NCBI RefSeq assembly: GCF_900169265.1
Contig: NZ_FXYX01000003.1
Location: forward strand, 1 to 64,000
Origin: Brevibacterium iodinum ATCC 49514
GTDB taxonomy: Bacteria > Actinomycetota > Actinomycetes > Actinomycetales > Brevibacteriaceae
DNA: 64,000 nucleotides
Reading direction: 5' to 3'
Both the position numbers and the translations under genes were made by a program. Position 1 is the stretch's first letter; each line of letters opens with the position of its first letter. This document shows positions 19,883 to 24,469 of the stretch, piece by piece. Below the pieces are notes generated by a model that was not told where the DNA came from, ran no database searches, and saw nothing but the letters and a program-made list of their open reading frames with translations.

Positions 19883-21502
19883 GTGCGTTACACATTCGCT
19901 GTGATTCTCATGGTGGTGGGTGTCGTCGTCGGTGGCCTCGGCATCCTGCAGAAGACCCTGTGGGCTCCGGAGGATACGATCACTGCCACCGCACAGATCG
20001 ATGCCGACAAACCGGCAGTCATCGTCGACCCCGGAATGCTCAACCTCTACGAAACCCCGACCACACTCACGGTCAAAGGCAGCGGCGACCTCACGATCGC
20101 CCAAGCCCCGATCGAGAACGTCGAAGCCTGGGCGGGACAGTCCGCCTATGACCGCGTCACCGGACTCGCCGAAGGCGGCAAGCTCACGACGAAGGCGACC
20201 GATGGTGAGGGCAAGGTTCCCAACCCCGCCGGGGCCGATCTGTGGCAGTCGGAAGTCACCGGCACCGATTCGGTTGAGCTGGAGTGGAACGACGAGGCCA
20301 ACCGCACCGGATTCCTCGTCGCCGGTGACGGCGAAGCCGGAGCGGTCAAATCCGTGACCCTCACCTGGCCCAACCATGCCGAGACTCCCTGGGCGCTCCC
20401 GCTGATGATCATCGGCGGTGTCCTCTTCGTCGTCGGCGTCGTCCTCCTCTTCCTCGGTGCGAACAATTCGAAGAAGGAAGCGAACCGCCGCAAGGCGCGC
20501 CAGGAGCGCCGCCGCAAGCTCGCCGAATACGGCACCGCCTTCGCCGTCGTCCCTGTGCTCGCACTCAGTGCCTGTGGTCCCGAAGAGCTGCCGAAGCCCG
20601 AGCCCTCCGAGGCTCCGAGCTCCGCGGCCGCGGGTGTCACCGATGACCAGGCCAAGCGGATCCTCGACTCCGTGGCCGCCGACGTCAAAGCCGCGGACAA
20701 GAAGACCGAAAAGAAGGCACTGGCCGAACGCGCCGCCGGTCCCGCGCTCAAGCAGCGTGAAGACCTGTACAAGGTGAAAGACGACGTCGAAGACCAGAAG
20801 ATGGCGCCGGAGGTGGCCAGCGAAGAGATCGTCGCCAACTACACCTCGGCCACCGATGCCTGGCCGCGCGTGACCAGCCTGATCACCTCCGCCGGTGGGA
20901 ATTCGCAGCTGCTCGTGCTGACCCAGGAGGATCCGCGCAGCAACTACAAACTGTGGTCGCAGACCCAGCTGACGGCCGGCACGAAGCTGCCCGAACTGCC
21001 CGACTCACGTCAGGGCGCGAAGATGCTCGAACCCGGATCCAAGGACTTCGTCACCACTCCGGAGAAGGCCGTCGCCGACTACGCGAAGGCCCTCGGCAGC
21101 GGAGCGGACTCGAAGGAGGCGAAGAAGTTCGAGTCCGATGACTTCTCGAAGTCCATCTGGAAGAACCAGAAGGACCAGAAGGCCAGCGCCGAAGAAGGCA
21201 AGGCCGAAGTCGACTACAAGTACACTCCGGGCAAAGAACTCGTTGCCCAGGGCACCGCCGGCGACGCCGCCATCGTCACCGGAGTCATCGATGCCGAATC
21301 GACGATCAGCCCCGAGTCGAAGGAGGGTCGCACCGGCACCCTGTCGCTGTCGTCGCCGCAGAAGGAACTCGTCGGCTCCGCGACGACCAAGGAGCCGGTG
21401 ACGACGAAGACCACCCAGGTGCTCACCTTCCTCGTCCCCAAGGACGGCAAGGTCAAGCTCATCGGCGGTCTCGAGACTCTCGCCGGAGCCGAAGCAGGCT
21501 GA
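19883..21502 (+). CDS. Membrane protein with internal lipobox, paralog 1
   Basis: 539 residues; no named family recognised. Order: membrane helix (5-23), extracytoplasmic beta-rich domain (about 28-170), membrane helix (about 172-193), short very basic cytoplasmic link (KKEANRRKARQERRRKLA), then a third hydrophobic stretch ending in a lipobox-like LSAC (about 230-234), a Pro/Glu/Ser linker and a soluble domain (about 255-539). It looks like a membrane protein fused to a complete lipoprotein. GTG 19883 has GAAGG about 8 bases upstream. The gene two places downstream has the same plan, and a thioredoxin-like gene lies between. Confidence 0.75.
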   Translation: MRYTFAVILMVVGVVVGGLGILQKTLWAPEDTITATAQIDADKPAVIVDPGMLNLYETPTTLTVKGSGDLTIAQAPIENVEAWAGQSAYDRVTGLAEGGKLTTKATDGEGKVPNPAGADLWQSEVTGTDSVELEWNDEANRTGFLVAGDGEAGAVKSVTLTWPNHAETPWALPLMIIGGVLFVVGVVLLFLGANNSKKEANRRKARQERRRKLAEYGTAFAVVPVLALSACGPEELPKPEPSEAPSSAAAGVTDDQAKRILDSVAADVKAADKKTEKKALAERAAGPALKQREDLYKVKDDVEDQKMAPEVASEEIVANYTSATDAWPRVTSLITSAGGNSQLLVLTQEDPRSNYKLWSQTQLTAGTKLPELPDSRQGAKMLEPGSKDFVTTPEKAVADYAKALGSGADSKEAKKFESDDFSKSIWKNQKDQKASAEEGKAEVDYKYTPGKELVAQGTAGDAAIVTGVIDAESTISPESKEGRTGTLSLSSPQKELVGSATTKEPVTTKTTQVLTFLVPKDGKVKLIGGLETLAGAEAG

Positions 21503-21653
21503 GGCGGAAGGGTCGGCACCGTGGTGTTCCTTCCCTGACGGCTGAGGAAATAGCCGTGGGCGCACCGGTGTTGATACGTTCTGTTGGATAAGCATGGACC
21601 AGGTGCGTCACGGCTTGCGCCGAGCCCACCGACCGCGTCACAAAGGAGACCAC

Positions 21654-22637
21654 GTGTCAATGGATCCCTCGCAGGAGAGCACGCAGCCAAACCAGGGACT
21701 CGACCTGTCGGCGGTGCGCAGCAAGAACATGCCCGCCGAGCAGGGCGGTCAGGCCGGTCACGCCGCCGGTGCGGGAGCCGGTGCTAACGGTGCTGCCGGT
21801 GACCAGGCCGGTGGGGACCCGGATGCGGTCGCCGTTCCGGGACTGGTCTTCGACGTCGACGAATCGACGTTCACCAGCCTGGTGGCGCTCTCCGACCGCG
21901 TGCCCGTCGTCATCGACCTGTGGGCCGAATGGTGCGAACCCTGCAAACAGCTCTCGCCGATCCTCGAACGCGTCGTCACCGCGTACGGGGGACGTCTGGT
22001 CCTGGCCAAGGTCGACGTCGATGCGAACCCGCGTCTGCAGCAGGCCTTCGGTGTTCAGTCGATCCCCACGGTCGTCGCCCTCATCAAGGGTCAGCCCGTG
22101 CCGCTGTTCCAGAGCGCTCTGCCCGAACCTCAGGTCCAGGCGTACTTCGACGAGCTGCTCAAGCTCGCCGGTGAGAACGGTGTGACCGGGCATGCGGCCG
22201 TCGGGGGAGCCGAGCCCGAACCGGCCGGCCCCGCCCACCCGGAGGCCGAAGAGGCACTCGCCAAGGGCGACTTCGACACCGCCGAGAAACTGTTCAAAGC
22301 CGCGCTGGCGAACTCTCCCGCCGATGAGGAGGCGAAGTTCGGTCTCGCCCGTGCGGGCCTGGGCCGCCGCCTCATCGACCAGGAACCGACCGGTCTCATC
22401 GCCGCCGCCGATGCGGACCCCAAGAACGTCGAGGCCGCGAAGGCCGCGGCCGACGCCGAAGTGGTCAGCGGCAATGCCGGCAGCGCCTTCAACCGACTCA
22501 TCTCTCTCATCCGCACCACCGCGGGTGATGAGAAGGAATCCCTACGCCTGCGGGTCCTCGATCTCTTCGAGGTCCTCGGCTCCGACGACCCAGCCGTGAC
22601 CAAGGCTCGGACCGCACTCATGAGGGCACTGTTCTGA
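21654..22637 (+). CDS. Thioredoxin-domain TPR protein (YbbN/CnoX-like)
   Basis: 327 residues. A disordered Gly/Ala-rich N-terminus (1-60) leads to a thioredoxin fold with LWAEWCEPCKQL (C94, C97; CEPC instead of CGPC) and the cis-Pro loop SIPTVVAL; the rest is helical, TPR-like (AEEALAKGDFDTAEKLFKAA). YbbN/CnoX proteins are cytoplasmic co-chaperones that protect cysteines. GTG 21654 is chosen: AGGAG lies 5 bases upstream; ATG 21660 is the alternative. It has no signal peptide, so it acts inside, between two genes for exported domains. Confidence 0.85.
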   Translation: MSMDPSQESTQPNQGLDLSAVRSKNMPAEQGGQAGHAAGAGAGANGAAGDQAGGDPDAVAVPGLVFDVDESTFTSLVALSDRVPVVIDLWAEWCEPCKQLSPILERVVTAYGGRLVLAKVDVDANPRLQQAFGVQSIPTVVALIKGQPVPLFQSALPEPQVQAYFDELLKLAGENGVTGHAAVGGAEPEPAGPAHPEAEEALAKGDFDTAEKLFKAALANSPADEEAKFGLARAGLGRRLIDQEPTGLIAAADADPKNVEAAKAAADAEVVSGNAGSAFNRLISLIRTTAGDEKESLRLRVLDLFEVLGSDDPAVTKARTALMRALF

Positions 22638-24469
22638 TCCAGCGAATCCGACTCATCACCGCCATCCTCTTCGGCGCAGCGGCACTCACGCTCGCCGGAC
22701 TGGTCATCTCTGCGCTCTCGGTCGTCGGCACCGACGAGATCACCGAGACTCCGACCTTCAAGGTCAAGGACGGTGCCTACGCCGTCGTCCTCGATGAGGC
22801 GATCGTGCCCTATTCGGGTTCGAGCGTGACCGTGACGGCGAACAACTCGAAGGGCACGGAGCTGTTCGTCGGCACCGCCAGCGGGGTCGACGCCGACAGC
22901 TACCTCGATGGGGTGGCGCAGGAGCAGATCAGTGATGTGTCGTTCCCGAATTCCGCGACCCATCGGTTCACTCCCGGCGACGCGAAGCCGGACGCCGATA
23001 TCGCCGATCGCGACTGGTGGATCAGCACGGACACGGGCAAGACGGTCGCGAAGACCTTCGACCTCGATGCCGAACCGCAGGTGCTCATCATCGCTCCTGC
23101 GAACTCCGATGACAGTCTTGATGGAACGACGGTGAGTCTCCAGATGCGCGGCAAGGGCGTGTTCGCACTCAGCCTGCTCGGCATTGCCGGGACTATCATG
23201 CTCGCCGGATTCTCGGTGTTCCTCTTCATGCGCTGGTGGGCCTCGCGCATCCGCCCGCCGAAGAAGGACGTCGGACTCCCGAGCGGCAGCGGACCCGGGG
23301 GAGGCAGCGGACCTGACAGCAGCGACAGCGGACCAGGAGGCGGCACCGGTTCCGGCCGCGACGGCGGGGGACCGGCCGCTGACCGCACAGCCAAGGGCGA
23401 GCCGGGACCCGCGACCCAGCCGATCTCGACAGTGCAGCCGGACACGGGCGGCCAGGCGCCACCTCGGCGACGGGATCTGCGGAACCGGCGGTCCTTCCGC
23501 GCAGTGACGGCCTCCGTCTTGGGCACCGGGCTCGTGCTCAGCGGCTGTGCGAATATGCCGATCGCCAAACCCAGCAGCCCGGACACCACCCCGTACGAGC
23601 GCACGGCGGTGCGCCCCGGTGAGGCCGGGAAGTTCATGACGAACTACACGGAATCGCTGGACAAGACCCTCGGCGACAAGGGCTCCGACCTCGACAAGAT
23701 CCAGGCGGCACCGCTCATCGACCACACCCGTGCGCAGATCCAGATCGCGGACAAGGCGAAGCAGAAGCTGCGCGCACCGAACTTCACCGAGGTTGTCGCC
23801 GGCAGCCCGAACTTCACCGAATACCCGATGTGGTTCTACGCCTTCGGGACCGCGGACAAGAAGTCCACGGATGGGGACAAGCAGCTGACCCAGGTGATGC
23901 TGGTGACGCGGGAATCGGCGTCGACCGATCCGCTCGTGCGTTCGGCGTCCTATATTCCCACCGAGCAGATGCCCGCCCTCATGGCCGATGACCGCGGCGC
24001 CGTGGAGACGGGGTCGGAGGACTTCTCCGAGGATCTGACGACCGCGTCCGGTGACGTCTCATCGTTCCTCGTCGACGGCAAGGCGAAATCCGGGGGTCCC
24101 GAGGGACTCAAGGAAGGCGGATTCAAGGGGTTCCGTGACTACCTGGGTGACCTGCGGGACAAGGACTCCGGCTTCGACAAGGTCGACGTCGACTGCAAGC
24201 CCTATGAGGACCTCAAGTTCGAGGACATGACCTTGAGCACCGAGAACGGCGCGATCGGAATGGGCGAAGTGCGGTGCACCCTGACGATCAAGGCACCGTC
24301 GGACTACGCACTCGACCTCGGCGACACCGTCGAAGCCGTGAAGACGAACGATAAAGAGGGCGACACCATCAAGGTCGACACCGCGCACCCCTATGTGCTG
24401 ATGAAGACCGGAGACGAACTCACCGCCGTCGCCACCGACTGGAACGTCCTGTCCTCCAAGGTGGAGTGA
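22634..24469 (+). CDS. Membrane protein with internal lipobox, paralog 2, apparent CTG start
   Basis: About 611 residues with the same plan as the gene at 19883: membrane helix (about 5-27), outside domain, helix (about 175-200), Gly/Pro-rich basic linker, third hydrophobic stretch with lipobox VLSGC (about 295-305), soluble C-terminal domain. No ATG, GTG or TTG exists in frame before 22805, and starting there would delete the first helix that matches paralog 1. CTG 22634 overlaps the upstream TGA by three bases and has GAGGG (22622-22626) 7 bases before it, so it is the best start. Function unknown. Confidence 0.7.
   Translation: MIQRIRLITAILFGAAALTLAGLVISALSVVGTDEITETPTFKVKDGAYAVVLDEAIVPYSGSSVTVTANNSKGTELFVGTASGVDADSYLDGVAQEQISDVSFPNSATHRFTPGDAKPDADIADRDWWISTDTGKTVAKTFDLDAEPQVLIIAPANSDDSLDGTTVSLQMRGKGVFALSLLGIAGTIMLAGFSVFLFMRWWASRIRPPKKDVGLPSGSGPGGGSGPDSSDSGPGGGTGSGRDGGGPAADRTAKGEPGPATQPISTVQPDTGGQAPPRRRDLRNRRSFRAVTASVLGTGLVLSGCANMPIAKPSSPDTTPYERTAVRPGEAGKFMTNYTESLDKTLGDKGSDLDKIQAAPLIDHTRAQIQIADKAKQKLRAPNFTEVVAGSPNFTEYPMWFYAFGTADKKSTDGDKQLTQVMLVTRESASTDPLVRSASYIPTEQMPALMADDRGAVETGSEDFSEDLTTASGDVSSFLVDGKAKSGGPEGLKEGGFKGFRDYLGDLRDKDSGFDKVDVDCKPYEDLKFEDMTLSTENGAIGMGEVRCTLTIKAPSDYALDLGDTVEAVKTNDKEGDTIKVDTAHPYVLMKTGDELTAVATDWNVLSSKVE

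Follow-up and report, generated by a model that had tools for sequence, protein, structure and literature searches.

An internal lipobox retained in fused membrane protein and lipoprotein genes of Brevibacterium

We have analysed three consecutive genes, A, T and B, on the plus strand of a 64,000-nucleotide stretch of the genome of Brevibacterium iodinum ATCC 49514 (contig NZ_FXYX01000003.1, positions 1 to 64,000; here called the window). To judge from comparisons with other genomes, A and B each unite two genes in one frame and are not a wholly new design: one of these genes, N, encodes a membrane protein with two transmembrane (TM) helices and the other, C, a lipoprotein. The new element is the lipobox retained inside the fused chains. 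We favour the view, at a probability of about 0.68, that the A and B fusions would be processed at this internal lipobox by Lgt and Lsp into two partner proteins. We observe directly the fusion, its spread among genomes, the persistence of the lipobox and, in most A genes, a link that lacks a start codon.

Shared plan and internal lipobox

As the initial annotation had proposed, A and B follow a common plan, consisting of a TM helix, a beta-rich outer domain, a second TM helix, a link, a signal-like segment with a lipobox, and a soluble domain. The link is basic in A and Gly/Pro-rich in B, and the open reading frames (ORFs) of all three genes and the two lipoboxes proved to lie as that annotation had described. 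The parts of the two fused genes are as follows.

19883..21502, plus strand: gene A, GTG start, 539 amino acids; fused two-TM membrane protein and lipoprotein
19886..19957, plus strand: predicted TM helix 1 of A (residues 2-25), from the model of A; KD19 2.62
19958..20392, plus strand: predicted beta-rich extracytoplasmic domain of A (residues 26-170), from the model of A
20393..20482, plus strand: predicted TM helix 2 of A (residues 171-200; helix in the model to 206); KD19 2.89
20483..20572, plus strand: basic link of A, followed by a signal-like internal segment (residues 216-230 uncharged) with the lipobox LSA/C at its end
20573..21499, plus strand: lipoprotein part of A, beginning with Cys231; NTF2-like in the model at residues 249-366 and, more weakly, at 382-539
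22634..24469, plus strand: gene B, probable CTG start, 611 amino acids; homologous fused two-TM membrane protein and lipoprotein
22637..22726, plus strand: predicted TM helix 1 of B (residues 2-31), from the model of B
23162..23242, plus strand: predicted TM helix 2 of B (residues 177-203), from the model of B
23243..23545, plus strand: Gly/Pro/Ser-rich link of B (length varies), basic stretch, signal-like segment (290-304) and lipobox LSG/C
23546..24466, plus strand: lipoprotein part of B, beginning with Cys305; two domains, NTF2-like in the model

The lipobox is kept in all 30 fused A and all 24 fused B proteins of the named Brevibacterium genomes, and in 12 of 12 fusions from the family f19; that of locus L138 was read directly in the sequence, and all 12 from f19 were confirmed by a later motif scan. 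With a permissive motif, it is also found in the 24 split relatives outside Brevibacterium that were counted. The Cys codons are 20573-20575 in A (Cys231 of LSAC) and 23546-23548 in B (Cys305 of LSGC, numbered from CTG 22634), and in the 30 named Brevibacterium A proteins this Cys is the only one. The uncharged run that precedes it has a median length of 15 residues in A and in B (range 15-18 in both) and 16 in f19 (15-17), compared with 17 in split B genes (15-17) and 16 in the other split genes (3-19). The one split Brevibacterium A scored a run of 5, as the motif finder had picked an earlier AAAC. Furthermore, the KD19 hydrophobicity of the signal segment is 1.58 in A and 1.37 in B, against 2.18-2.89 for TM helices 1 and 2 of the window proteins; the f19 median is 1.97.

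In 26 of the 30 A genes there is no in-frame ATG, GTG or TTG from the end of the N match to codon -13 before the Cys, and none is present in the link of gene A in the window. Because the link of these genes has no start codon, their lipoprotein is most likely made only via the fused chain. The signal peptide of the presumed precursor is internal, ahead of Cys231 or Cys305, and lies close to a gene start only in the split relatives. Basic stretches are found throughout before the third segment; by reading of the sequences, RRSF or RRSL occurs in only part of the B family. The split lipoproteins of L113 and L107 carry RRSFL and RRRLVL, respectively, before the lipobox, which look Tat-like by eye.

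The paralogy of the two genes, also suggested in the initial annotation, is upheld by an alignment that runs from end to end (hhalign probability 99.2, E-value 1.7e-19, 523 columns), and on this comparison A and B are full-length paralogs. In the structural models, the first C domain shows a curved beta sheet against which helices pack, the arrangement of an NTF2-like fold; the second (A residues 382-539), with a weaker resemblance, may have the same fold. Neither A nor B reached any Pfam cut-off, nor did ten N or C proteins from split genes, and the Rieske model was absent among the Pfam matches for A and B at E-values up to 1. No NCBIfam cut-off was reached by A or B, the two window proteins searched, and a PDB sequence search with A alone gave no match up to an E-value of 1. 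CDC50-like structural matches of the N domain were set aside: most cover about 60-70 residues, and the two that span 141-144 have root-mean-square deviations of 9.5-12.8. Finally, Cys521 and Cys548 in the lipoprotein part of B are invariant in 20 aligned rows and may form a disulphide.

Fused and split forms across genomes

Whole-genome searches and fetched loci show both fused and split forms. In 15 other Micrococcales families, each sampled with one or two genomes, N and C are different, adjacent ORFs in 18 of 18 loci, with T beside them. A candidate start of C overlaps the stop of N by 4 nucleotides in 26 of 31 split pairs, drawn from the other families, the outgroups and the split Brevibacterium genes. 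Gene A is a single ORF in 33 of 37 Brevibacterium genomes (28 via one full-length match and 5 via opened loci); the remaining four are one split gene (L084 of genome G013), two genes at contig edges (G014 and G031) and one with a frame break within the N domain. The last is a near relative, in which gene A is interrupted by the frame change at G032:C1:2588781-2590396, part of L049. A single ORF was also found in 77 loci (30 Brevibacterium and 47 Micrococcaceae) of a named set, which comprises the top 80 of 212 candidates and, as the query used for the ranking was itself fused, is biased to fused forms; the other three are split (L150) or at contig edges (L148 and L195). The Micrococcaceae counts refer to this set and do not include genomes outside it, such as G104. 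In f19, A is fused in all 12 loci opened, of which 8 represent every f19 genome matched, unselected, and 4 were chosen for long open frames. Among 31 named loci, the B parts form one ORF in 24 and two in 7, and within the fetched Micrococcales stretches the B pair was found only in Brevibacterium. Many named and unnamed loci among L079-L198 are the same strains twice, so that these counts are not independent.

The initial annotation had named, as an outcome that would tell against it, homologues that are plainly two genes with a fusion only in this genome. The first half is what we see in the other 15 families; the second half fails, as the fusion extends across Brevibacterium, Micrococcaceae and f19. 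That a frameshift or misassembly in a single genome created the fusion is ruled out by the 33 Brevibacterium genomes with a single ORF. A chance ORF is likewise ruled out, because changes in the A linker are mostly synonymous in frame: between TM helix 2 and the signal helix, the ratio of non-synonymous to synonymous changes over the 30 Brevibacterium loci is 0.79; the outer domain has 2.98, and reading in the two shifted frames gives 6.0 and 30. Judged by these ratios, the A link is constrained at the protein level.

In a tree of 60 rows with a midpoint root, the fused A proteins of Brevibacterium, Micrococcaceae and f19 fall together on one side of a branch (SH-aLRT 98), and this grouping therefore suggests a single old A fusion, later split in L084. 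The notion of B as a recent Brevibacterium duplication is unsupported, since B groups with the outgroups f45, f33 and f26 (SH-aLRT 98), a placement limited by long branches and by the midpoint rooting. The gene order is T-N-C in f45 and f33, and N-C, then a mutase, then T in f26.

Processing of the fused chains

The route that we favour for these proteins begins with two ancestrally overlapping genes, N (two TM helices and a beta-rich outer domain) and C (a tandem NTF2-like lipoprotein), which would have fused in frame. With the link in the cytoplasm, the third hydrophobic segment would cross outward and expose the lipobox at the outer face, where Lgt would lipidate the Cys and Lsp (signal peptidase II) would then cleave. 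One chain would in this way supply the membrane protein and the lipoprotein in a 1:1 ratio. From the sequences we infer this topology, the lipidation, the cleavage and the partnership of the two halves. Cleavage at the internal Cys is the best reading, backed by the conservation of the Cys and by the length of the segment, and the initial idea that one gene could yield a membrane protein and a separate lipoprotein was sound, with the cut itself still a prediction.

Several observations weigh against processing by Lgt and Lsp. Conservation of the Cys indicates that it is used, not that the chain is cleaved there, and the loci are related and not independent. The models of A and B show no confident helix at the junction, where pLDDT in A is below 50 (residues 205-248). 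For B, 21 of 24 fusions have an in-frame ATG, GTG or TTG in the link, which makes internal initiation possible. The lipobox Cys has been lost in 47 of 47 named Micrococcaceae fusions, which are proteins without any Cys, and in this lineage the fused form would therefore not need lipidation. The same loss would also tell for the Cys being used wherever it has been retained.

It could be that the chain stays uncut and the third segment is a membrane anchor, giving a three-TM protein with an outer C-terminal domain and a Cys that is lipidated or idle. We think this unlikely, although it would suit the Cys-less Micrococcaceae fusions, in which the third segment has a longer uncharged run (median 25). 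Nor does low hydrophobicity alone prove cutting, because the last of the three TM domains that precede the outer domain in actinobacterial Rieske proteins is likewise of low hydrophobicity (PMC5449189). The segment of the Cys-bearing fusions, however, has the length of a signal peptide (15-18 uncharged residues), and an idle Cys would hardly be kept in 66 of 66 sequences (30 A, 24 B and 12 f19), albeit related ones. We also regard as improbable, to much the same degree, that the B lipoprotein is made wholly or additionally from an internal start, which would make the long ORF a polyprotein only in part. In favour of this, most B fusions have starts in the link, and those of L133 and L134 have an ATG preceded by AGAGGA or AAGAGGA just before the signal helix; the link of B in the window, by comparison, holds only GTGs without a clear Shine-Dalgarno sequence, the nearer of them bordering the hydrophobic segment, and most A genes (26/30) do not fit as they lack such a start. 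In L133, L134 and L130, an in-frame ATG of B stands just 5' of the signal helix, and both fused and separate products are possible there.

For the Micrococcaceae alone, the idea that signal peptidase I has taken over the site from signal peptidase II and releases the C domain has in our estimate an even chance of being right. The segment there ends in Ala-rich sequence, and in the 47 aligned proteins Ala occupies -3 in 37 and -1 in 40, and the column entropy H is 1.25 at -3 and 0.81 at -1, compared with 2.63 at -2, which is far more variable; a signal peptidase I site should show this pattern, the position here having been set by eye on the alignment. The presence of AxA was dismissed as proof of such a site, as it was observed in 43 of 47 and in 41.6 after shuffling of the Ala-rich stretch. 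On the wider proposition, that processing by Lgt and Lsp at an internal lipobox defines an old polyprotein class spanning several families, in which one lineage switched to signal peptidase I, our opinion is equally balanced.

A search of one literature library turned up no case of an internal lipobox in such a chain, which is not proof of its absence from print. Like the lipoprotein precursors handled by Lgt and Lsp, A and B have a basic n-region, a short h-region, a lipobox (LSAC or LSGC) and a soluble C-terminal domain; unlike in those, the signal is internal, after a two-TM protein, and not N-terminal. In the cytochrome b/c1 polyprotein FbcH of Bradyrhizobium japonicum, a membrane protein and an exported protein are made joined together, and the signal sequence is internal. 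A and B resemble it in having membrane and exported parts in a single chain; FbcH involves signal peptidase I and haem proteins, whereas A and B have a lipobox and an NTF2-like domain. Two TM helices, a cytoplasmic link, a weakly hydrophobic third segment and an outer domain are also features of the actinobacterial Rieske protein (PMC5449189), but A and B have a Cys lipobox, a candidate twin-arginine motif occurs in only part of the B family and a Rieske domain was not found.

If the favoured processing by Lgt and Lsp is correct, lipoprotein signal peptides would be processable inside multi-pass chains, and annotation that looks only at the N-terminus would overlook them. The split, the lipobox-bearing fused and the Cys-less fused forms of one gene pair offer a natural comparison.

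Gene T, the start of gene B and neighbouring genes

The features between the two fused genes are the following.

AAAGGAGA, plus strand: directly upstream of the GTG start of T at 21654
21654..22637, plus strand: gene T, thioredoxin-tetratricopeptide repeat (TPR) protein of YbbN/CnoX type, WCEPC; start GTG 21654 or ATG 21660
22623..22636, plus strand: Shine-Dalgarno-like AGGG, 7 nucleotides upstream of the CTG at which B probably starts; this CTG and the TGA of T overlap as CTGA

The start of B at GTG 22805 given in the initial annotation is very probably wrong, because the first TM helix is encoded upstream of it. There is no ATG, GTG or TTG from the preceding in-frame stop to GTG 22805, and the only usable start is CTG 22634; B thus probably starts at a CUG within the stop of T. 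In 20 genomes (the window and 19 named loci) the CTG overlapping the TGA of T is the sole candidate before a conserved Arg6, and in all 20 the Arg of the C-terminal MRALF of T is encoded by AGG, which creates the AGGG 7 nucleotides before the CTG. In the 12 remaining Brevibacterium loci examined, this Arg has a CGN codon (one has MRSLF) and B a conventional start. The CTG-start genomes form one cluster of near relatives and may therefore reflect one single event. Gene A has its closest named relatives in B. permense and B. sediminis, at 99% identity.

That a thioredoxin-TPR gene lies between A and B was correctly recognized in the initial annotation: T exceeds the Pfam cut-offs for PF00085 (thioredoxin) and TPR_20 (PF14561) and has a WCEPC motif. 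With its N-terminal thioredoxin fold and C-terminal TPR, T has the domain composition of the YbbN/CnoX chaperedoxins; among its PDB matches are ybbN (3qou) and a chaperedoxin (9wcw), in alignments that cover the thioredoxin part alone. Unlike those proteins, T is linked to an envelope gene pair and has a variable CxxC, absent from the Micrococcaceae loci. Among named loci, this motif is present in 19 of 31 from Brevibacterium and in none of 47 from Micrococcaceae; it also occurs in 6 of 18 loci of other Micrococcales and in 5 of 12 from f19. Its frequent loss weakens the candidacy of T as a conserved redox partner. In the Micrococcaceae loci L151-L198, YSPES stands at the CxxC site in 33 of 48 ORFs, and 13 were left unresolved by the pattern.

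CnoX proteins are described both with and without CxxC, and the Escherichia coli CnoX as a holdase that hands clients to GroEL/DnaK (PMC6282202). Because the CxxC is so often lost, T might act more as a holdase or scaffold than as a reductase, and as a working guess N and C could form an envelope complex with the CnoX-like T helping on the inner side; these two suggestions are the least certain that we make. T follows C in 118 of 120 loci from L079 to L198, the other two being at contig edges. Of the triplet whose conservation the initial annotation proposed to check, a trio of membrane protein, lipoprotein and T recurs across the Micrococcales, without the second pair B, which in the fetched stretches was confined to Brevibacterium; the trio points to a recurrent envelope module of membrane protein, lipoprotein and CnoX-like protein.

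Comparison of the neighbours of the locus between families indicated no function. The outer neighbours vary: an AI-2E-type transporter and an OYE reductase in L117, thiamine phosphate synthase in L099, and thiolase, MeaB and a mutase in L217. The family f37, large genomes that are probably Streptomyces, has a lone lipoprotein that is a C-domain homologue by profile (E-values 2e-20 to 7e-30); neither N nor T was found next to it in L212-L214. This homologue lies next to the iron permease gene EfeU in 9 of 14 f37 loci (L212-L214 and L219-L229), and an efeUOB-like cluster is described for S. lividans (PMC4736821).

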